In this document: in pieces, positions 7,945 through 18,187 of the stretch
Numbering within the stretch: the stretch's first letter is position 1
Layout of the letters: each line of letters starts with the position of its first letter
DNA from: a virus
Reading direction: 5' to 3' (one strand)
Virus record (IMG/VR): IMGVR_UViG_3300023174_000512
Coordinates: 1-28,956 of that record
DNA length: 28,956 nt
Notes under the pieces: model-generated
Database searches by the model: none
What the model was told of the DNA's origin: nothing
What the model saw: the letters and a program-made list of their open reading frames with translations, nothing else
Translations under genes and position numbers: made by a program

Positions 7945-8403
7945 ATGTGGATACTATCAATACTACCCGACGCCGCAATACATATAATCTTTATACTAGG
8001 TATTTTGGGCACAATAGCAGGATTCGTCCTAGGATTCATTCCCTTCATTAAAACCTACAAATTAGCAATACAAATAATTAGCTTACTTGTGTTAGTTCTT
8101 GGTGTATATCTTGAGGGGGGCTTAGCCGACTATAAAGAGTGGGAACTTAGAGTCAAAGAGATGGAAGCTAAAGTAGCACAAGCTGAAGCAAAATCAGCTA
8201 ATACAAATGTAGAAATACAGGAAAAGATTGTAGAAAAGACTAAAGTGATCCGTGAAAAAGGTCGTGACATTATACAGTACATTGACAAAGAAGTTGTCAA
8301 AAAAGAAGAAGTTATAAAATACGTTGAAAATTGTCCAGTTCCTAAAGATATAATTGATTTACATAACCAAGCCGCTGAATTGAATAAGGGAGCAAAGAAA
8401 TGA
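7945..8403 (+). CDS. Probable inner-membrane spanin (Rz-like)
   Basis: The 152-residue product has two hydrophobic stretches (about 12-36 and 41-57), then a long charged coiled-coil region (about 60-125, rich in KVAQAEAKS and KEEVIKYVE) and a single Cys near the C-terminus (VENCPVP). Inner spanins combine an N-terminal membrane anchor with a periplasmic coiled coil and work with an outer-membrane lipoprotein to fuse the two membranes at lysis. The next gene, overlapping by ATGA, encodes exactly such a lipoprotein. Two membrane segments instead of one are unusual and imply either an N-out topology or one segment that is not inserted. Confidence 0.7.
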   Translation: MWILSILPDAAIHIIFILGILGTIAGFVLGFIPFIKTYKLAIQIISLLVLVLGVYLEGGLADYKEWELRVKEMEAKVAQAEAKSANTNVEIQEKIVEKTKVIREKGRDIIQYIDKEVVKKEEVIKYVENCPVPKDIIDLHNQAAELNKGAKK

Positions 8404-8663
8404 GATATCTCTTAATTGCTCTATTATTAGCAGGATGCTCTACTACAGTTCCTGTCACTCAAAAGTTCCCTAATGCTACCCCTGAATTAATGAAAAAATG
8501 TGAAGACCTCAAAAAGATTGAGGGTGACAAAGTAGCTATTACTGAAATGCTGAAAGTAGTCGTACATAATTATTCATTATATTGGGAATGTTCAGCTAAA
8601 GTAGATGGTTGGCAAGATTGGTATAACGCACAAAAGAAAATCTATGATAACATTGCAAAATAG
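8400..8663 (+). CDS. Probable outer-membrane spanin lipoprotein (Rz1-like)
   Basis: An 87-residue protein with a classical lipoprotein signal: MRYLLIALLLAGCS, with the lipobox LLAGC and acylated Cys13, followed by Ser-Thr-Thr, which favours outer-membrane sorting. The mature part of about 75 residues is helical and charged, with two further cysteines (KKCEDL, WECSAK) that could form a disulfide or link subunits. It starts in an ATGA overlap with the inner-spanin-like gene. Together they form a two-component spanin. The pairing and gene order, rather than sequence similarity, carry the call. Confidence 0.7.
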   Translation: MRYLLIALLLAGCSTTVPVTQKFPNATPELMKKCEDLKKIEGDKVAITEMLKVVVHNYSLYWECSAKVDGWQDWYNAQKKIYDNIAK

Positions 8664-8919
8664 TAGCATATTATTGGTTTGTTTATTATTTGTTGGGTGT
8701 GCATCAAACGATCATTATTCTATATATGTAGAAGCTCAGAAGTCATTAAGTAGAGATGCTACAGTAGCAGAAGCCGCACGTATTGCTGCCTTAACAGAAT
8801 TATCTAAGAGTTCAGACAATGAAGTTAAGATACAAGCTATTAAAGCACTACAAGAAATACAGTATAATAAGCGTCAAATTATTATACAAAAGCCCAAGAG
8901 TTGGTTAGACTTTAGATAA
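8644..8919 (+). CDS. Second small lipoprotein
   Basis: I choose the ATG at 8644, overlapping the previous gene by 20 nt, because it gives a 91-residue protein with a clean lipoprotein signal: MITLQNSSILLVCLLF then VGCAS (lipobox FVGC). The next upstream in-frame ATG at 8605 would add 13 charged residues before the signal. The mature part is a helical, Ala/Glu-rich segment (VAEAARIAALTELSKSS, VKIQAIKALQEIQ) ending in KSWLDFR. It follows directly on the spanin pair and probably belongs to the lysis unit, perhaps as an accessory or alternative outer-membrane partner. Function unknown. Confidence 0.7.
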   Translation: MITLQNSSILLVCLLFVGCASNDHYSIYVEAQKSLSRDATVAEAARIAALTELSKSSDNEVKIQAIKALQEIQYNKRQIIIQKPKSWLDFR

Positions 8920-8922
8920 ATA
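8915..8922 (+). promoter_or_regulatory. Late-promoter-like motif (GATAAATA)
   Basis: GATAAATAC overlaps the lipoprotein stop codon (TAG-ATAAATAC becomes TTTAGATAAATAC). The start codon of the structural gene is at 8944, 21 nt downstream, with AGGATTT between, so a short leader with an RBS results. Confidence 0.65.
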
Positions 8923-8943: not shown

Positions 8944-9828
8944 ATGTCGCAAGAAAATATTGATACTGAAAGTTTACCATCTGGTGGTGATCCATTACGT
9001 ACTTCTTTTGACAACAGCAACCTTAAAAACTTATTTACGTTACCTATTTCTAATTCAGAAGCAACAAATGGAACGTTAGTTGAAGTAGTTAATACTACCC
9101 AACCTGTAGGAAATATTAATAATATTGGAAATGTATATATTACTAACAAATTTGATAGTAGAGCAAACAATCCGGTATTAATTAGACAAAAAGCTAAAGT
9201 AACCAAGCCTATAATAGCACAAGCTTCTACATTTACTGAAGTAGAATCATTAGAAACTAATACCAGTACTATAACAGTTGGACCATATCGTAATCAAGAA
9301 TATATTAACATTGGTGCAAGTCCCAATGATGGTAACGGAGATCCATTAAGAACTGCATTTAGTAAGATTAATAATAATTTTAGCAATTTATTTCTTACTA
9401 CTACAACTACATCTACTGCATATACTTTGGGAAATGCACAGGGTCAAGTTATATTTGAAGTGCCTGTAGTAGAATTTTATCAAGGTGAATTTCAAATACG
9501 ATCAAGTGATTCAGGAACACCTGACATGCAAAATATTACATTGACTGCAAGTATTACTAATAATCTAGCCGGTGTAAGATTCAGTGGACATTCAACATTA
9601 TTTAGAGGTAATGCTATTTGTAGATATAATATGGATGTATCAGCCGGTAATGTTAGAATTTTGATAAATCCATTAGCAGACATAGGAATAGAACATTTTA
9701 TAGCGGCATATATAACTTATCCAGATCAAGTAATTATATCAGGAATTGAGATTGCATTAAATGGATATGCTAATGGATATTTACTAGGCACCGAAAACAA
9801 TTTAATATTAACGACGGAATCACAATGA
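8944..9828 (+). CDS. Virion structural protein with repeated DPLRTAF motif
   Basis: The 294-residue product contains two copies of a motif seen in many tail and baseplate proteins of marine T4-like phages. The N-terminal copy is GGDPLRTSFDNSNLKNLF (about residues 14-31). The internal one is IGASPNDGNGDPLRTAFSKI (about 122-141), followed by NNNFSNLF. Between and after them are beta-rich, Thr/Asn/Ile-heavy segments typical of fibre or baseplate decoration. No signal peptide, no catalytic residues. A late-promoter-like motif stands 21 nt upstream. It is probably part of the virion; its exact location is not determinable. It ends in an ATGA overlap with the first CTS-bearing gene. Confidence 0.7.
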   Translation: MSQENIDTESLPSGGDPLRTSFDNSNLKNLFTLPISNSEATNGTLVEVVNTTQPVGNINNIGNVYITNKFDSRANNPVLIRQKAKVTKPIIAQASTFTEVESLETNTSTITVGPYRNQEYINIGASPNDGNGDPLRTAFSKINNNFSNLFLTTTTTSTAYTLGNAQGQVIFEVPVVEFYQGEFQIRSSDSGTPDMQNITLTASITNNLAGVRFSGHSTLFRGNAICRYNMDVSAGNVRILINPLADIGIEHFIAAYITYPDQVIISGIEIALNGYANGYLLGTENNLILTTESQ

Positions 9829-10226
9829 GAGCAAAAGAATTTATAACAGAACAAAGATTGGATCAAGTTCATGATGGCTTAGATATAGCATCTCCGGCTC
9901 TCCCCAATACGTATGTTATTCCAGAGTTAAAAAACAACGACTTCTATAATTTATATCGTTTCGGTGTAGCAATTGCCGCAGTAAGAGGTGAAAGCGGAGA
10001 CGATGATGTTCAAAATGGATTTAAACCTAACTTTAGAGCAGAAACTAGTTGGGGAGAACATCAGGTTGTTAGTTCATTTGATCCTAAGGTAGGAGAATTA
10101 ATTGACAAGGCACTTAAAAAAGTACATATATCTGGTAAGAAAATGGTAAGTACTCCGGGAAGTGAAGAAATGGATGACACCTTAACTCAGTCACCTATTA
10201 AAGGATTTAAAGGATATAAAAGATGA
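9825..10226 (+). CDS. Putative internal head protein with capsid-targeting N-terminus (paralogue 1)
   Basis: A 133-residue protein opening MRAKEFITEQ. This closely resembles the capsid-targeting sequence of T4 internal proteins (MKTYQEFIAE), which the prohead protease cuts after (I/L)xE; here the cut would fall after ITE (residue 9). The body has DFYNLYRFGVAIAAVRGE, ETSWGEHQVV and a helix GELIDKALKKV, and the end is TQSPIKGFKGYKR. The next gene shares the same N-terminus, the same block order and the same C-terminal FKGYKR, so the two are tandem paralogues. T4 internal proteins are packaged and injected with the DNA. The family is one I associate with marine T4-like phages, without a known function. 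Confidence 0.7.
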   Translation: MRAKEFITEQRLDQVHDGLDIASPALPNTYVIPELKNNDFYNLYRFGVAIAAVRGESGDDDVQNGFKPNFRAETSWGEHQVVSSFDPKVGELIDKALKKVHISGKKMVSTPGSEEMDDTLTQSPIKGFKGYKR

Positions 10227-10597
10227 GAGCAAATGAGTTTATATCCGAAGCTACGATCGGCAAAATAGGAAATAGAAAACAAATAGCTACAAAAGGTCTA
10301 CATAAGTTCCGTGATGAAAACTGCGCCGACCGCACATATGAGTTGAACAGGATCATGATGGCTGCAGCCGCAACTGATGGAACTTTTGTACCAGAAATAG
10401 ATGGCGAAAGTTGGGCTGGTAGATATAATATTGCAGTACCTTATACCCAACAAGAGCAAGATATGTTAATGATGGCATACAAAGCCGCAGGGTCAGATTA
10501 TCACGATTTAAATAAGGGTGATCTAAAAAGTAAAGAGTTAGATAGTACCAATACTCAAAGTACTGTAAAACCCTTTAAAGGTTACAAAAGAAAATAA
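10223..10597 (+). CDS. Putative internal head protein with capsid-targeting N-terminus (paralogue 2)
   Basis: A 124-residue protein opening MRANEFISEA, with a predicted prohead-protease site after ISE (residue 9). Blocks in order: KGLHKFRDENCADRTYELNR, MMAAAATDGT, GESWAGRYNIAVPYT, a helical QEQDMLMMAYKAAG, GDLKSKELDSTNTQS and the tail FKGYKRK. The E-x-SW-G block and the tail align with the upstream paralogue, while the middle has diverged strongly. Start and stop overlap by ATGA with its neighbour, and the first 30 nt of both genes are nearly alike, pointing to duplication. A structural or injected role is inferred from the N-terminal peptide and the position among late genes. Confidence 0.72.
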   Translation: MRANEFISEATIGKIGNRKQIATKGLHKFRDENCADRTYELNRIMMAAAATDGTFVPEIDGESWAGRYNIAVPYTQQEQDMLMMAYKAAGSDYHDLNKGDLKSKELDSTNTQSTVKPFKGYKRK

Positions 10598-10649: not shown

Positions 10650-11345
10650 ATGATTGATATTAACAACACGCTTGACTTATTAAAATTAAAGTTTTACAAC
10701 GAATGGCTTTACCAAGCCCATATATATGAAGAAGGTGACAGTCAGTTTCATAAACAACTTACTTCCCAAATCATTACACAATATATTGACCCGTTAAATA
10801 TTCCAAAAACTGCGAAAATCTTAGATTTGGGTTGTGGCCCTGGTTATTTCTTAGATGAAATGAAACAACGTGAATATACCGATCTTACTGGAATTACATT
10901 AAGTCCGGGTGATATTAAAATCTGTGAAGATAAAGGTCATACGATTAAAACATATGATTTAAGTTTCTTACCACAAAAAGACGGTTATTTTGATGAAAGT
11001 GTAGACTTTATCTTTTTACGTCATGCATTAGAACATAGTCCATATCCTATCTTTAGTTTGATGGAATATAATCGTGTATTGAAACAGGGTGGTAAACTTT
11101 ATATTGAGGTTCCTGCTCCTGATTGTGAGCGCAAACATGAATGGAATTTAAATCATTATAGTATTTTAGGTGAACAACAATTAGCTGCCTTATTAGACCG
11201 TACTGGTTTTGCAATTAATAAATTTGAAAACTTTGAATTTAGTTTAAATACACCCAATTCAGAAGATGCAGAAAAACCTGTATTAATGAAAGAAAAATAC
11301 TATTGTATTGTAGCTACTAAAGCTAGACCACTAGATATCAAATAA
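10650..11345 (+). CDS. Class I SAM-dependent methyltransferase
   Basis: The 231-residue product has motif I ILDLGCGPGYF at 57-67, binding S-adenosylmethionine. After it come an acidic loop, a motif-IV-like region FDESVDFIFLRHALEHSPYP and post-motif strands KQGGKLYIEVPAP. This is the type-11 fold used on small molecules, sugars or lipids. There is no DPPY or PC motif, so it is not a DNA methylase. The first 50 residues (NEWLYQAHIYEEGDSQFHKQ) resemble the opening of O-antigen and sugar methyltransferases. With the epimerase and aminotransferase 3-4 kb upstream it may belong to surface-sugar modification, though it sits among virion genes. A terminator follows directly. Confidence 0.88.
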   Translation: MIDINNTLDLLKLKFYNEWLYQAHIYEEGDSQFHKQLTSQIITQYIDPLNIPKTAKILDLGCGPGYFLDEMKQREYTDLTGITLSPGDIKICEDKGHTIKTYDLSFLPQKDGYFDESVDFIFLRHALEHSPYPIFSLMEYNRVLKQGGKLYIEVPAPDCERKHEWNLNHYSILGEQQLAALLDRTGFAINKFENFEFSLNTPNSEDAEKPVLMKEKYYCIVATKARPLDIK

Positions 11346-11349
11346 AAAC

Positions 11350-11357
11350 GATAAATA
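11350..11357 (+). promoter_or_regulatory. Late-promoter-like motif inside a terminator
   Basis: GATAAATA directly follows the methyltransferase stop. Its last four bases form the start of the terminator stem at 11353. A transcript from here would begin about 6-7 nt later, in or near the hairpin loop, leaving a leader of about 18 nt before the ATG at 11382. Confidence 0.6.
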
Positions 11358-11381
11358 CTCACTAACAGTGAGTATTTTTTT
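11353..11381 (+). terminator. Hairpin terminator abutting a start codon
   Basis: A perfect 10-bp stem (11353-11362 with 11368-11377), loop TAACA and a run of seven T residues (11375-11381) form a strong intrinsic terminator for the methyltransferase unit. The T-run ends directly against the ATG of the next gene. Confidence 0.85.
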
Positions 11382-13124
11382 ATGGCCTATCCAGAACCAA
11401 CAGAAGTAAGTCCTTGGTACTTACGCAATATAACACAAGCATTAGCACTTGATGAAGCATCCGGGAATGTTTATGTCCGTACCGGCTTTACCGGTAATAT
11501 TGTTATTGAGGGTAATGTTAATATTCCCGGCAATATAGATGCTCATATCTCAGAGATTGGTACATCCGGTAACTTAACTGTTCCTTATATGCCTATTGCA
11601 GGTAATATAACAATTGATACTGGGCAATCAGTTGGTATCAGTGGTAATGTTAATATTGGTACAATGCCTAACGTCAATGCGACCGTATCAGGAACAGTAG
11701 CAGTTAGTTCAATAACAGGTAATCTTGCTGGTATTACTGCAAACGTAACAGTAGTAGATGGCGGCGGAAGTATTACCGTAGATGGAAACGTGGGAATTAC
11801 AGGAAATGTCAACATCGGTACAATGCCAAATGTTAACGCAAACATCACAGGTGGCAATGTAACCGTAACTCAAGGCACAAGTCCATGGATTGTGTCAGGT
11901 AATGTAGGAGTAACTGGTACTGCTAATGTAGCATTTGGTGGCACACAGCTTGATGCATTTGGTCGTTTGCGTGTCTCAAATCCAGTAACATTATTTGACA
12001 GTCAAAATAGATATCTACCCGGAAAACAATTTAGTAATGTAACTGCTACGGGTGGAAATGTAGTATATGTATCAAATGAAAGCAGTTTTAATTTAAACGT
12101 TAGTACTGCCAATGGCAGTAGCGCAATTCAACAAAGTAGATTTGTACAACCATATCAACCAGGTAAAAGTATGTTGATAATGGAAAGTTTCTGTATGAGT
12201 ACATTAATTGCTAACTGCCGTCAGCGTGTTGGTTATTTTACTACAGAAAACGGAATATACTTTGAAGCAGACGGTACTACATTATATCTCGTTATTCGTA
12301 GCAGTGCATCAGGAGGTATTGTTGAAGAACGCATAGCACAATCTGCATGGAATGGTGATAGACTTAACGGTATACCCGGTGCAAACAATCCTAGTGGCAT
12401 AACACTAAACCCAGCATTGACAAACATATTTTGGTGTGATATTGAATGGCTGGGCGTAGGTAATGTAAGAGCCGGATTTGTTATTAACGGTCAGTTTATT
12501 TTATGTCACACATTCCAACATGCTAATCAATCAGGCAACACTAAGGTCTATATGACTACCGCAACGTTGAATCCAAGATATGAAATTACTAACACAGGTA
12601 CAACTGCAAGTAATTCAACATTCAAACAAATTTGTAGCACTGTTATTTCCGAAGGTGGATATACCCCTGCAACTACTGAAAATTATGTAAGTAGTGGAAT
12701 AACTCCTACTAGAGTGGCCACAGCCAATGTGTTTACTTCTATAGCAACTATTAGATTGAATCCAGCATATACTGATGCTGTAGTAAAACCTAGTCAATTA
12801 GATTTGTTACTAACAGATGTACAATATGGACAATACCAATTGGTGCTCAATGCCAGTAATGTTGCTGGTCTTACTTACGCAAACATTGCCAACAGTGTAG
12901 TTCAGGCTAATACCAGTGCAGTTCAAATTGGTGATGGTACAGTGTTGTTTGGTGGAGTTACCAGCAGTAGAGATACTTTTGCAATTAGTGAAGAAATTTC
13001 GTCAAGACTACAGTTGAGCAGACAGGCAAATGGAACCCCCGACACATTAACTTTGTGTGTGGGTTATGGCAACCCCAATGCTGATTTACTGTGGCGATTT
13101 GGCTGGATGGAAATTACAAACTAA
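11382..13124 (+). CDS. Large beta-repeat virion structural protein, 580 aa
   Basis: The N-terminal third (residues 35-185) is a low-complexity beta-rich array. GNVNIGTMPNVNA occurs exactly twice (88-100 and 141-153), with many GNV, GITGN and VSGNV units, as in trimeric beta-helical fibres. Residues about 187-210 (QLDAFGRLRVSNPVTLFDSQNRY) are a hallmark I associate with structural proteins of marine T4-like phages. The C-terminal two thirds look like a jelly-roll or lectin-like domain. No signal peptide or catalytic motif. It sits just before the terminase and just after a combined late promoter and terminator. Tail fibre or capsid decoration are both possible. No Shine-Dalgarno core is present before the ATG, only a weak GTGAG. 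Confidence 0.75.
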   Translation: MAYPEPTEVSPWYLRNITQALALDEASGNVYVRTGFTGNIVIEGNVNIPGNIDAHISEIGTSGNLTVPYMPIAGNITIDTGQSVGISGNVNIGTMPNVNATVSGTVAVSSITGNLAGITANVTVVDGGGSITVDGNVGITGNVNIGTMPNVNANITGGNVTVTQGTSPWIVSGNVGVTGTANVAFGGTQLDAFGRLRVSNPVTLFDSQNRYLPGKQFSNVTATGGNVVYVSNESSFNLNVSTANGSSAIQQSRFVQPYQPGKSMLIMESFCMSTLIANCRQRVGYFTTENGIYFEADGTTLYLVIRSSASGGIVEERIAQSAWNGDRLNGIPGANNPSGITLNPALTNIFWCDIEWLGVGNVRAGFVINGQFILCHTFQHANQSGNTKVYMTTATLNPRYEITNTGTTASNSTFKQICSTVISEGGYTPATTENYVSSGITPTRVATANVFTSIATIRLNPAYTDAVVKPSQLDLLLTDVQYGQYQLVLNASNVAGLTYANIANSVVQANTSAVQIGDGTVLFGGVTSSRDTFAISEEISSRLQLSRQANGTPDTLTLCVGYGNPNADLLWRFGWMEITN

Positions 13125-13148: not shown

Positions 13149-14696
13149 ATGAGTAATGCACCATCGTTAGTAAAGAATCCTTATACTAAAACAGTTTTTA
13201 AAACTGATAAAGAACTACAGGATTTTATCAAATGTTGTGACCCAGATACAGGTTATCTATATTTTATGGATAACTTCTTCTATATACAACACCCTACAAA
13301 AGGTAGTATGGTCTATCACCCTTGGCCCTATCAAGAACGATTGATTGATACCTATCATAGATATCGCTATTCAATCAGTCTGATGCCTAGACAATCAGGT
13401 AAATCAACTTCAGCCGCCGGATACTTACTCTGGTACGCCATGTTTGTGCCAGATAGTACTATTTTAGTTGCGGCACATAAATATACAGGTGCTCAGGAGA
13501 TTATGCAACGTATTCGGTATGCATACGAAAATTGCCCCGATCATATCAAAGCAGGTGTAACAACATACAACAAAGGCTCATTAGATTTTGAGAATGGCAG
13601 TCGTATCGTTTCAGCAACAACTACTGAAAATACAGGTCGTGGTATGTCTATTACACTACTATACCTTGACGAGTTTGCATTCGTTCGTCCAAGTATCGCT
13701 AAAGAATTCTGGACAGCTATTACACCAACATTGTCAACTGGTGGTAAAGCAATTATCACAAGTACACCAAACAGTGATGAGGATCAATTCGCTTATATCT
13801 GGAAAGGTGCTAACAAGACTGAAGATGAGTTTGGTAACACAACTGAATTAGGTATTAATGGCTTTAGAGCTTATAGAGCACACTGGAGTGAACAGCCCGG
13901 ACGAGATGAACAATGGGCTACAGAAATGAAAGCACAACTCGGTGAGGATCGTTTCAACCGAGAGATTGGTTGTGAATTCATTATTGCTGATGAAACATTA
14001 ATCAATCCAAACACATTGATTGCAATGGAAGGTATGGAACCCATTAGTCGTATAGGGCAAGTGCGTTGGTATGAGAAACCAAAGAAGGGTAATATCTATT
14101 GTGTAGGATTAGACCCAAGCTTAGGTACCGGTGGTGACCCTGCTGCCATTCAAATCTTTGAAGCAAACACTACTACTCAAGTAGGTGAATGGAAGCACAA
14201 CAAAACTGATATCCCGAGTCAAATCAAACTATTGGCACAGATAAACAAATATATAGCGGAATGTACTAATGAACCCAATAACATCTATTACAGTATTGAA
14301 TGTAATGGTATAGGGGAAGCCGCTATCATATCATTAAGCGAATACGGGGAAAGTAATATCCCGGGTATCTTTATCAGTGAAGCGGGTAAAGGTCGTAGAG
14401 GATTCAATACTACAAATAAGAGTAAATTAGCAAGTTGCGCTAAGTTCAAAACACTAGTTGAAAGCAAGAAAATGACTGTAAATAGTCGTAGTCTTATTAG
14501 TGAAATGAAAGCATTTGTAGCACATGGTGGTAGTTATGCCGCTAAAATCGGTGATACTGATGACTTGATAATGGCTAGCTTATTAGTTACACGTATGTTA
14601 CAGCATTTAAGTGATTATCATGTTAATTTAGAGACACAGATGCGTGACCACGATGAATACATAGCACCTTTGCCCTTCTTTGCGGTCATAAGCTAA
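13149..14696 (+). CDS. 17: Terminase large subunit (T4 gp17 family)
   Basis: The ATPase/nuclease motor that packages DNA into proheads and cuts the concatemer. The 515-residue product is shorter than T4 gp17 (610). ATPase domain: Walker A PRQSGKST at 80-87, Walker B LLYLDEF with D174 and E175, coupling motif TSTPNS at 205-209. Nuclease domain (RNase H fold): GLDPSLGTGGD with D322, YSIECNG with E384 and GDTDDL with D471/D472, the expected Asp-Glu-Asp triad. Start chosen: MSNAPSLVKNPYTK, the only reasonable ATG. In T4 the sheath and tube genes follow gene 17; here a 721-residue protein follows instead. The start codon sits in a small palindrome and has no Shine-Dalgarno site. Confidence 0.97.
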   Translation: MSNAPSLVKNPYTKTVFKTDKELQDFIKCCDPDTGYLYFMDNFFYIQHPTKGSMVYHPWPYQERLIDTYHRYRYSISLMPRQSGKSTSAAGYLLWYAMFVPDSTILVAAHKYTGAQEIMQRIRYAYENCPDHIKAGVTTYNKGSLDFENGSRIVSATTTENTGRGMSITLLYLDEFAFVRPSIAKEFWTAITPTLSTGGKAIITSTPNSDEDQFAYIWKGANKTEDEFGNTTELGINGFRAYRAHWSEQPGRDEQWATEMKAQLGEDRFNREIGCEFIIADETLINPNTLIAMEGMEPISRIGQVRWYEKPKKGNIYCVGLDPSLGTGGDPAAIQIFEANTTTQVGEWKHNKTDIPSQIKLLAQINKYIAECTNEPNNIYYSIECNGIGEAAIISLSEYGESNIPGIFISEAGKGRRGFNTTNKSKLASCAKFKTLVESKKMTVNSRSLISEMKAFVAHGGSYAAKIGDTDDLIMASLLVTRMLQHLSDYHVNLETQMRDHDEYIAPLPFFAVIS

Positions 14697-14717: not shown

Positions 14718-16883
14718 ATGGCTAAAAATCAAGAATCAATCAACCGCTCATTATTTGAGCTATTACGTAGTAGAGGGTATGCCCCAACACTATTAGATAC
14801 TTCTGGTAAGGAAATTCCAGTACCAGAAGAAGCAGAAGTCTTTCAGTTTAAGTTTACTAAAGACGGAGAAGAATATGGCACAGTAACAGCATCTATAGAT
14901 GGATTACACAAATTAGTAATTTACTTTGGTGATGATGTTGCTAACAGTGAAAAAGAAAATAATGGTGGTGATGATTCTTGGTACAAATTATTAAATCATT
15001 TAAAGCGTTTTGCACAGCAACACCAATTAAGTTTTGAAGTTAAAAACAGAGACCATTTAAAATATGATATGGCAAAAAGGGAACATATGAAAAAGCAAGA
15101 AAGAATATCAGAAGGCTACTATCCAATGGGTAAAAAAGCTAGTTATAATGACAATATTCCAACAGTTAAGATTGTTATTGAACATAGTCGTCAAATTGAA
15201 GAAGGTGAACAACGATATCGTAATGTAAACCGTATTTTCTTAGAGAATACACAAGGCGAACGAATTCTTGCTCCTACAACTAAGCCAGGTATTGCTCAAA
15301 TATATGCCCGTCATCTAGCTGAAGGTGGTTTACCACATGATGACCGTTGGAATCATATTGGTAGTTTATGTGAAGAATATCAAAAGATGGCAGGATTCGT
15401 TCGTGCTACACGTAACAATCAATTCAACGAATCAGCACAACAGTTGGTTAATGAGGGTATTAACCATTATCAAAGTTTAAAAGAATCATTAAGCAAGATG
15501 CGTGGTTCACGTGGTTACAATAGTTATTTTGAATCATATACTCCTCCGTTAATGGAAGATGAAAGTGAAGAAAACAATTTGAACGAATTGTTTGTGCAAG
15601 AAACATTAGATCCACGTATTGAAAGTGTAATGCCAATATTAAGTAAGTTACATAAAAAAGTAGCTGAGATGAAAGAAGTTAATGAGTTAAGTGAATGGGC
15701 TGAAAGCTTAACTGAAGCGCCCGGCGCAGAAACATTAAAACACAATGATGATACTGAAGCTAGTAATCTAAAAGCATTTGATTTAGCTGAAGATGATAAT
15801 TTGCAAGAACCTGCCATTGATGAGTTAGATGAATCTGATACGCAATCTAGTAATCCAGGTGGTATTCCAGAAGATGATTTAGATGAAGGTATTTTAGATA
15901 CTGTTAAGAAAGTTGGAAGTAAAGTATTTGACAAATTAGGTGGTGGTAGCGAAGAAGACCTAATTAAAAAACTACAAAAATCAGCTGGTGTACCACAAAC
16001 TGGTAAGAAGCCTGAACCAAAAGATAAACCAGTTGGTGAAGGTCTAGACGATGCTCATCAAGCCGATCAGAAAATCAACACTCCTGCAGTACAACGTAAA
16101 GAAAAAGGTGGTGATTGGAAAGTTACTACACAAGATTTAGCCAAAGCTGATGAGAAGAACATGACCAGCCAAGCTGGTATGGCTGCGTTGAAGAAACGTA
16201 TGAACACTATTGAAGAAGTTGATATGGGTCAAGCTGATAGTTCATTAAGAAATAATCTAAAACAAAACAATGATAAAATGGATCACTTTACTGCGTTAGG
16301 TAAAGCATCAAAGAAAATGGGTCACGATCATTTTATGGATGTACCTGATGACAAACTTGAAGCACTTAAAGCAATGGTTAAGAGATTTAGATCCGGTGAA
16401 GAAGTTGATGAAAGTGCATTACAGGCATACTTGGGTGATAAGAAGTACGGTAAAGATGGTATGGATGCATTGCGTAAAGCAGGTCGTGATGATGCTAGTG
16501 AAAAGAAAATGCAAAACATTCGTGCCCATTATAGCGATAAAGAAGAACCTATATCTGAAGATGAATTTGCAGGTGACTATGCTACAGGTGAAGCAGGACA
16601 ATGGCGTAACAAAGGTCCTAAAGCAAATAAGCCAGCAACGATCGGTGATCTAGTTGGTGAAGGTGAAGAGAAAGATAATGATACTCTTGATCCATGGAAA
16701 CATGTAAATCCTAGAGTAGACAATCCTAAAATTAAGGGAACTGATAACCGTGCTAAATCTGCATATTATCCTACTCCTAAGCCCCCTGTTAAGAAATTAG
16801 ATACACCATATACTAAAGAGTCAGTAGCAGAAGGTTCTGATGATTTGGCAAGAATATTAAACATTGCTGGAATTAAAAAATGA
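14718..16883 (+). CDS. Large acidic virion- or head-associated protein, 721 aa
   Basis: Residues 1-115 form a compact alpha/beta domain (SLFELLRSRGYAPTLLD). Residues about 140-190 form a second folded piece (IPTVKIVIEHSRQIEEGEQRY). From residue 270 on the sequence is mostly acidic and disordered-looking, with short helices. Sites of the form (I/L)xE occur several times (ISEG at 131, LTEA near 331, ISED near 615). The last segment SVAEGSDDLARILNIAGIKK looks like a conserved C-terminal peptide. Such proteins in T4-like phages are core or scaffold proteins cut by the prohead protease, but homology to gp22 is not visible. The position after the terminase and a late-type promoter support a late virion role. 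The following gene overlaps by ATGA. Confidence 0.7.
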   Translation: MAKNQESINRSLFELLRSRGYAPTLLDTSGKEIPVPEEAEVFQFKFTKDGEEYGTVTASIDGLHKLVIYFGDDVANSEKENNGGDDSWYKLLNHLKRFAQQHQLSFEVKNRDHLKYDMAKREHMKKQERISEGYYPMGKKASYNDNIPTVKIVIEHSRQIEEGEQRYRNVNRIFLENTQGERILAPTTKPGIAQIYARHLAEGGLPHDDRWNHIGSLCEEYQKMAGFVRATRNNQFNESAQQLVNEGINHYQSLKESLSKMRGSRGYNSYFESYTPPLMEDESEENNLNELFVQETLDPRIESVMPILSKLHKKVAEMKEVNELSEWAESLTEAPGAETLKHNDDTEASNLKAFDLAEDDNLQEPAIDELDESDTQSSNPGGIPEDDLDEGILDTVKKVGSKVFDKLGGGSEEDLIKKLQKSAGVPQTGKKPEPKDKPVGEGLDDAHQADQKINTPAVQRKEKGGDWKVTTQDLAKADEKNMTSQAGMAALKKRMNTIEEVDMGQADSSLRNNLKQNNDKMDHFTALGKASKKMGHDHFMDVPDDKLEALKAMVKRFRSGEEVDESALQAYLGDKKYGKDGMDALRKAGRDDASEKKMQNIRAHYSDKEEPISEDEFAGDYATGEAGQWRNKGPKANKPATIGDLVGEGEEKDNDTLDPWKHVNPRVDNPKIKGTDNRAKSAYYPTPKPPVKKLDTPYTKESVAEGSDDLARILNIAGIKK

Positions 16884-18187
16884 AAATTTCATCATTATTA
16901 AATGAGGCTGAAAAAACTAATAGCAGTACCTCTATGGCTTTGCCAATTGATAAAGATTTAATATATAGAGCTAGAAATAAATATCCTGGTTATTCTGCAG
17001 AACAGGCAATGATATTGTTAATTGCAGATGAAATGAAGAATCAGGAAAAAACAGATTCAACACAAAATACATTGATAGATACTCAGAAACGGGAGAATGA
17101 ACGCTTAAGAGGATCTGTACAATCATTGAGCCAAGAATTACAAGATTTTGAACAACAATCAGTTGAAACCGATCGTGAAGTTGCTAGGTTGAAACAATTA
17201 AGTGGCATGTTAACTACTGGTGGTGCTAGTACACAGCAAAAAGCAAAAGTTAGTGCTGATGAATTAGAAAAACTTAACAAAGATTTGGAACAATTAAAAT
17301 CTAAGCCCGGCATGGATCCAAAAGTATACAATGAATTAAGTGATCAACTTAAAATATTAAGTACAAATAAATCAACAGAACAAGCTGATGTTAACCAATT
17401 AAAAAATATGGTAAAAGATATTGAAAATCAAGCATCGGTTAATTATAAATCTGTTGCTAAAGAACTTAATCAAACTAAACAAAGATTGTCAGATAAAGAA
17501 CAAAGATTTAAAGAATATAAAAGTAGTTTTAAAGATTATAAAAAAAGCACTACAGATAAACTTGAAAAATTTGGTCAAGAGATGAAGAACGAGTTAGACA
17601 TTTCAAGACAACTAAGAGCCGGTATTCAACAAGATGCAGAAGATATTAATAAAATGAAGGTTGAACTTAGTCAAAATCTGGATCTTATAAATAAAAATAT
17701 TGAAAAAATGAATATTGATTCATCAGATAAAAGTGTATCAGACATTCCATGGCTTGTTGGGCAAGACACACCTTATAAAAAACCACCAATAGCACAGAGT
17801 CCAAATAGTATACAAGAAAGTATAATTTATACAGAAGGATATAATGTTGTCCCATCTCGTCAATATCGTAACGCTAAATATAATGAATGGTTAATAAAAC
17901 ATTTACCTGGATTGTTTTCTATGTTTAAAGGAAGATATGCTGATGAATTAGCAGAAAAAGACTATACAGATAAACAAATAGTTGATACATTAGAAGAATA
18001 TGTTCCTATGTTATACAATTTGGGTGATGAAAAAACACCACTAACTGCTGAACAAGTTAAACTTTGGTTGGATAACGTTAAATTAAAATTATGGGAACAA
18101 CCAGTTCAACATGAATTGTTTAATGAAAGCCTAGAAAAAACATATGCACGTATGTTAGACAAAATAATTGGACTTCCCTACATCTAA
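16880..18187 (+). CDS. Coiled-coil protein with capsid-targeting-like N-terminus, 435 aa
   Basis: Opens MKISSLLNEAEK, a third peptide of the CTS type with a possible prohead-protease site after LNE (residue 9). Residues about 55-275 form a long coiled coil with heptads (ENERLRGSVQSLSQELQDFE, LKQLSGMLTTGG hinge, KELNQTKQRLSDKEQRFKEY). A globular C-terminal domain of about 125 residues follows (GYNVVPSRQYRNAKYNEWLI, EDYTDKQIVDTLEEY-like helices, ending MLDKIIGLPYI). Starts in an ATGA overlap with the acidic 721-aa protein, so both are likely co-expressed late. It may be an internal core or scaffold-like component, or a tape-like rod. No family recognised. Confidence 0.7.
   Translation: MKISSLLNEAEKTNSSTSMALPIDKDLIYRARNKYPGYSAEQAMILLIADEMKNQEKTDSTQNTLIDTQKRENERLRGSVQSLSQELQDFEQQSVETDREVARLKQLSGMLTTGGASTQQKAKVSADELEKLNKDLEQLKSKPGMDPKVYNELSDQLKILSTNKSTEQADVNQLKNMVKDIENQASVNYKSVAKELNQTKQRLSDKEQRFKEYKSSFKDYKKSTTDKLEKFGQEMKNELDISRQLRAGIQQDAEDINKMKVELSQNLDLINKNIEKMNIDSSDKSVSDIPWLVGQDTPYKKPPIAQSPNSIQESIIYTEGYNVVPSRQYRNAKYNEWLIKHLPGLFSMFKGRYADELAEKDYTDKQIVDTLEEYVPMLYNLGDEKTPLTAEQVKLWLDNVKLKLWEQPVQHELFNESLEKTYARMLDKIIGLPYI

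Follow-up and report, generated by a model that had tools for sequence, protein, structure and literature searches.

The virus record IMGVR_UViG_3300023174_000512, a stretch of 28,956 bases that is called the window below, comes from an uncultivated giant virus of bacteria. Two adjacent open reading frames (ORFs) on its plus strand, here named A and B, encode small proteins with the N-termini MRAKEFITE and MRANEFISE, as recorded in an earlier note on this DNA. We refer to these nine residues as the tag, and consider A, B and the tag in relation to the capsid-targeting peptides of phage T4. Both tags end in a site of the prohead-protease type (I/L)xE, namely ITE in A and ISE in B, as that note had also pointed out. 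The parts of the two genes are the following (arrows mark predicted or probable cuts):

9825 to 10226, plus strand: ORF A, 133 residues, with an ATGA overlap (4 nucleotides) with the upstream gene at 9825 to 9828
9825 to 9851, plus strand: tag of A, MRAKEFITE, predicted cut after E9 (ITE↓Q)
9852 to 10226, plus strand: body of A, 124 residues, 13.8 kDa, isoelectric point (pI) 5.9, matching no known family
10206 to 10223, plus strand: C-terminal FKGYKR of A
10223 to 10597, plus strand: ORF B, 124 residues, with an ATGA overlap with ORF A at 10223 to 10226
10223 to 10249, plus strand: tag of B, MRANEFISE, predicted cut after E9 (ISE↓A)
10250 to 10597, plus strand: body of B, 115 residues, 12.9 kDa, pI 9.0, with a mostly helical model and no known fold
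10574 to 10591, plus strand: C-terminal FKGYKR of B, followed by K

A and B are tandem paralogues, as originally proposed. In the window record, their sequences are 31% identical (E=1.1e-5), and profile-profile alignment with hhalign joined them over their full length with a probability of 99.4% and E=6e-22. The C-terminal FKGYKR was present in both as described, whereas the reported E-x-SW-G motif was only loosely common to them (ETSWGE in A, ESWAG in B). The strong divergence noted earlier held between A and B but not within either orthologue set. Since the median ratio of nonsynonymous to synonymous substitution (dN/dS) was 0.15 for A and 0.09 for B orthologues, the earlier argument from diversifying selection fails; purifying selection acts on both sets, and A and B together form an almost universal, fixed locus. 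The B family is very large, with at least 577 stretches confirmed by the B profile, and the gene order across relatives was variable (AB, BA, ABB, AAB and ABA, as well as AxB or BxA with another tagged gene inside). Mature B was basic and mature A mildly acidic, with median pI values of 8.95 and 5.67, respectively.

No match to the body of either protein was found in Pfam, PHROGs, the PDB or cultured phages, and the same collections gave no similarity to T4 IPI, IPII or IPIII. No A or B homologues were detected by profile in the phages PA5oct, Phosso and Atu_ph07, and no B relatives in GTDB genomes. Matches of B to QueG, Nucleocapsid and phrog_19478 (Pfam/PHROG E values of 0.03–0.09) and of A to GroEL in the PDB (E 0.07) were rejected as chance. 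AlphaFold models had a mean per-residue confidence (pLDDT) of 63 for A and 74 for B, with the N-terminus modelled at low confidence. Foldseek found no match of the B model in the PDB at E<1, and a search of the viral library gave one weak match to an uncharacterised phage protein (E=0.08, TM score 0.34).

The loci of relatives were fetched with full-length queries, and the homologues themselves were picked with residues 11 onward only, so that the tag could not bias their choice. The earlier note had staked its reading on relatives conserving the first ten residues, and its reading withstood that check. Among the homologues selected by their bodies, the pattern MRA.[ED]F[ILVM].E was kept in 81 of 82 distinct A and 92 of 101 distinct B sequences (173 of 183 together). 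The sole A mismatch was a start-site miscall; of the nine B mismatches, five had F at position 3 and four had a two-residue insertion that retained LNE or ISE. M1, R2, F6 and E9 showed little or no variation, positions 4 and 8 were free, and position 7 was I, V or L. Conservation dropped sharply past E9, where a variable stretch directly follows, the entropy being 0.38 (A) and 0.79 (B) bits for residues 1–9 and 1.69 and 1.83 bits for residues 10–25. Based on these alignments, the tag match between A and B is not due to chance.

Within the tag, synonymous sites were saturated (proportion of synonymous differences, pS, 0.66–0.70) and the nonsynonymous counterpart (pN) was low, at 0.09–0.14; what is constrained is therefore the peptide, not the DNA or the RNA. 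Codon 2 was mostly AGA (74/81 and 78/95), and cargo genes have clearly been exchanged at a fixed upstream sequence, as would be expected if the conserved start were a nucleic-acid feature, either a translation-initiation signature or a recombination anchor for gene swapping. We regard this explanation as very improbable, given that codons 3, 5, 6, 7 and 9 occurred in several synonymous forms at saturated synonymous sites and that the same peptide was found with quite different codons. The tag sequence may be used in recombination, but that is not what conserves it.

The same tag was also present on proteins that are unrelated to A and B. It was found on a 177-residue protein encoded between B and A (L132) and on a 293-residue protein in a contig that also has the A/B pair (G014); together with G014, contigs G021 and G022 likewise combined A/B with unrelated tagged proteins. 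At one locus, flanked by a head-tail adaptor and a nucleotide kinase, 25 distinct mosaic ORFs started with MRAxEF[IL]xE, and in them exchangeable modules (ParB-type, GNAT, ART-like and others) were connected by QGVAEG, QAVAEG or VTEG. We scanned all IMG/VR contigs for MRA[IT]EF-hydrophobic-x-E, using the same codons in permuted order as a control, and obtained at least 120 matches for the tag pattern versus 12 for the control. Among the matches listed, 109 of 111 distinct tagged ORFs began at the tag, a median of 6 codons past the upstream stop, whereas the control matches fell inside reading frames. The codon set also codes for serine at position 2, which was seen only in two internal matches.

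The bodies behind the tag, again among the matches listed, formed 33 BLAST clusters; two of these were false internal matches, leaving about 31, some of which may be distantly related to one another. Pfam searches assigned the bodies to ART-PolyVal (6e-8), SOD (4e-23), NUDIX (1e-25), GH19 (1e-16), Phage_lysozyme2 (2e-13), M48 (8e-9), GNAT (5e-5), ParB_N (2e-5), DUF6321 (2e-12) and, weakly, Kinase-PolyVal (4e-4), and further to amidoligase and DUF6267; the tail lysozyme was accompanied by LysM. Three kinds of tagged protein had two domains in one chain, as polyvalent proteins do: ParB+GNAT, M48+DUF6321 and LysM+lysozyme. Tagged genes also formed arrays, with as many as five members (L415, L409). 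A contig of 346,856 bp with a 134-bp terminal repeat had 6 tag-like N-termini among 427 predicted ORFs, compared with a mean of 0.4 and a maximum of 3 in 300 shuffles of the N-termini. In 13 other large contigs, the longest of 524,565 bp, there were 1–6 MRAxEF tags each and none of the reversed pattern. PA5oct, Phosso and Atu_ph07 had no MRAxEF tags.

Several individual genes are worth recording here. The superoxide dismutase, of the Fe/Mn type (L476:1943-2473; PF02777, E=4e-23), follows the tag MRATEFLTE and is a candidate virion-borne antioxidant enzyme. In the 347-kb jumbo phage, a tagged 190-residue protein (MRANEFVTE ... RGYKK; L351:3329-3901, equal to G021:43329-43901) lies between two spanin-like genes. 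A second tag type, MK(H/K)F(K/H)(E/Q)YLAE, starts a conserved protein of about 202 residues (L361:4274-4882, plus strand, and L132:3965-4573) that is homologous (E=7e-12) to PA5oct gp282, which mass spectrometry has identified as a virion protein; in the copy of PA5oct, the E at the site is missing. In contig G001, two solitary genes directly behind late-promoter-like ATAAATACTA(A/G) sites (L157, 14451, minus strand; L160, 6453, minus strand) encode unrelated bodies headed by looser forms of the tag, MRYHQLLVE and MKITEIVVE.

Because about 30 unrelated bodies, enzymes included, carry the same nine residues, the tag is not part of the A/B fold, and it is probably an address label for head loading and delivery. 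This bears on the explanation that A and B are ordinary neck, tail or baseplate structural proteins whose shared N-terminus is part of a duplicated fold. Their operon position behind a gp9/10-like gene, the head genes nearby, their near-universal presence and purifying selection would all suit such proteins, and paralogy by itself accounts for the similarity of A to B. It does not account for the same residues on unrelated enzymes, for the fall in conservation immediately past E9 or for the low-confidence modelled N-terminus, and we consider structural proteins of this kind quite unlikely.

In 42,135 residues of tagged proteins other than A and B (a set that is not fully non-redundant), the linker VAE↓G occurred 30 times and five permutations of its letters not at all. 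Whole proteomes showed no enrichment of [ILV]xEG over its reverse, hence the linkers are a property of the tagged cargo and not of the phage overall. In a junction test, 22 of 145 shared-module starts lay at most 12 residues from [ILVA]xEG versus 7% at random; the excess is just about twofold because many alignments start within modules. Judging from their sequence, the VAE↓G linkers would be cut by the prohead protease.

A protease of this kind is encoded by relatives, four of which (G001, G003, G004 and G021) carry a gp21-type prohead protease (Peptidase_S77), a scaffold and gp23, in the order portal, small core protein, acidic core protein, protease, scaffold and gp23; the window fragment stops short of these genes. 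Comparing it with the proteins of T4 and PA5oct, we place the probable cut in the clade's gp23 at LLAE↓STAG or YLKE↓NAS. In T4, the sites cut in Alt are ITE-6 and LTE-619 (PMC5694885), and the first ten residues of IPIII suffice for capsid targeting, positions 8 and 10 being the ones that govern processing (PMC9026906). As the probable gp23 cut and the tag share the L-x-E rule, and given the Alt and IPIII precedents, the most economical reading of the tag is a capsid-targeting propeptide cut after E9. In the T4 record, IPIII begins with MKTYQEFIAE and IPI with MKTFKEFTSTTTPVSTITE. The near-identity to MKTYQEFIAE claimed in the earlier note thus held in that the tag is T4-like, but the tag is one residue shorter and has no aromatic residue at T4 position 4: of the T4 targeting residues 4 and 7, F7 corresponds to the invariant F6 and Y4 is without a counterpart (A3-x4).

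That unconserved position 4, together with the fact that support for the tag's role comes from sequence only, would leave room for a different address: an uncleaved docking or sorting helix, or a signal for the replication compartment, the membrane or the tail instead of the prohead core. One tagged family does have a TAT-like segment after the tag (PF10518, weak). We judge a different address unlikely, since the strict E9 with an aliphatic position 7 equals the T4 gp21 cut rule, which the clade's probable gp23 cut also fits, the insertion variants preserve the site, and the cargo domains fit the virion-packaged polyvalent repertoire (PMC5512222).

A and B are likely to be internal head proteins, expressed late, of a jumbo phage from the T4 superclade, with the tag as a capsid-targeting propeptide cut after E9 and bodies that are most likely injected. 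Packaging of the tagged proteins is well supported by inference from sequence; late expression, cleavage and injection of A and B we infer. In the proposed mechanism, the tag MRAxEF[ILV]xE would dock a protein on the scaffold core during prohead assembly, the gp21-type (Peptidase_S77) prohead protease would then cleave after E9, and the mature bodies would be kept alongside the DNA inside the head and would most likely pass into the host together with it. The tag would be a general cargo address, serving ADP-ribosyltransferases, ParB-type domains, acetyltransferases, peptidases, lysozymes, NUDIX proteins and superoxide dismutase in single genes, arrays and polyproteins, and A and B would be a nearly universal, slowly evolving core cargo, not a variable effector. 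The T4-like targeting peptide suggested at the outset is strengthened by the presence of the same peptide on many unrelated effector-like proteins and by the T4-type protease, scaffold and gp23 of relatives.

Several points weigh against this propeptide reading. Packaging and cleavage in the clade are read from sequence, and the tag is without the position-4 tyrosine that is important for targeting in T4. Among isolates whose virion proteins are annotated by mass spectrometry, PA5oct is the nearest; it has neither an A/B homologue nor the MRAxEF tag, and its looser N-termini resembling capsid-targeting sequences are only weakly linked to virion proteins (2/3, too few strict matches). The bodies of A and B yield no functional hint because the AlphaFold models are poor, and purifying selection has conserved both proteins, whereas the internal proteins of T4 are variable. 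Near-universal conservation without an effector domain would also suit proteins that are packaged but structural or scaffold-like and not injected, like gp67/gp68 and not IPI. We hold this to be possible though doubtful; it concerns the last step only, agreeing with the propeptide reading up to packaging, and the clade's other tagged proteins are enzymes, which argues for delivery as the purpose of the tag. With low confidence, we favour A and B as constitutive internal proteins travelling with the DNA over variable anti-restriction effectors. A DNA-associated role would be a guess, and the basic pI suits B only.

Compared with known systems, the tag and A/B share with T4 IPI, IPII and IPIII a short N-terminal peptide rich in E-F-(I/L)-x-E with a gp21-type protease site, one tag on unrelated bodies, small size and tandem genes (T4 ipII and ipIII are likewise adjacent). 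The T-even internal proteins are diverse defence proteins with the targeting sequence as their only common part (PMC3012670). They differ from A/B in having ten residues and not nine, MKTY and not MRA, and non-homologous bodies, and they are variable whereas A and B are conserved and nearly universal; the tag of this clade is also on far more and larger proteins, polyproteins included. T4 Alt, an injected ADP-ribosyltransferase (ART), is similarly enzyme cargo behind a short propeptide ending in I/L-x-E, and the clade has tagged ART-PolyVal-like proteins, but its ART family is distinct (PF18760 plus unassigned ART-like) and neither A nor B contains an ART domain. Phage polyvalent proteins (Iyer et al, 2017; PMC5512222) are multidomain and late or virion-linked, with ParB, ART, kinase, peptidase and lysozyme domains, and their packaging was predicted on other grounds. 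Their processing was proposed to occur via their own peptidase domains, whereas this clade has a T4-like address peptide and swappable modules with VAE↓G linkers fitting the prohead protease. A and B each consist of one body of about 120 residues, unlike multidomain polyvalent proteins with two or more effector-type domains per chain. The head and ejection proteins of the giant phages phiKZ, SPN3US and 201phi2-1 also have N-terminal propeptides cut by a gp21-like protease, but these are mostly much longer with the motif S/A/G-x-E (PMC5694885), compared with nine residues and [I/L/V]-x-E, as in T4, in this clade.

T4 capsid targeting and polyvalent proteins are thus each already known; in the literature searched, we found no report joining the two or describing the MRAxEF tag. 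We give even weight to the broader claim, drawn from these sequences, that this widespread clade of uncultivated jumbo phages has a modular delivery system, with a nine-residue tag on dozens of exchangeable host-directed enzymes that are encoded in gene arrays and in mosaic polyproteins, the modules of which would be released in the prohead by the head-maturation protease at VAE↓G linkers, and with A/B as conserved core cargo. If true, the injected proteome of a large uncultivated jumbo-phage group would be readable from sequence, any ORF starting with MRAxEF(I/L/V)xE would be a candidate delivered protein, and many function-unassigned proteins would be flagged for host takeover and counter-defence. 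The tag would be a second natural capsid-loading tag beside T4's, and the head protease may double as a polyprotein processor.

The surroundings of A and B in the window comprise the following features:

8916 to 8922, plus strand: ATAAATA, T4-type late-promoter-like, preceding the operon 8944-10597 (consensus match only)
8944 to 9828, plus strand: T4 gp9/10-like baseplate/fibre-connector protein, gene 1 of the operon (phrog_677, 9e-7; PF07880, weak)
11382 to 13124, plus strand: virion structural protein downstream of A and B (phrog_1645, head and packaging, E=3e-96)
13149 to 14696, plus strand: large terminase of T4 type, about 50% identical to those of jumbo phages PA5oct and Phosso
14718 to 16883, plus strand: homologue of PA5oct gp278, a virion protein by mass spectrometry (E=2e-22)

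By its terminase (about 50% identity), the nearest relatives of the phage are PA5oct and Phosso. A methyltransferase-like ORF also lies downstream of A and B. Homology of 11382-13124 to PA5oct gp281 and of 16880-18187 to PA5oct gp279 was tested and none was found. The gp278 homologue has many sites of the form [ILV]xE followed by G, A or S, SVAE↓GS among them. Directly after it, 16880-18187 encodes a 435-residue coiled-coil protein whose N-terminus, MKISSLLNEAE, is another possible capsid-targeting start. Slightly upstream of the gp9/10-like gene, 7945-8663 holds a spanin-like pair (inner and outer membrane subunits). ATAAATA-like sites, again as consensus matches only, were located 11–31 bp before the ORF starts at 7945, 8944, 11382, 13149 and 14718. 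At 11345-11380, directly ahead of the ATG at 11382, a late-promoter-like ATAAATA shares bases with a perfect hairpin, AATACTCAC-taaca-GTGAGTATT, behind which comes a T run; this element may be a terminator and a late promoter in one.
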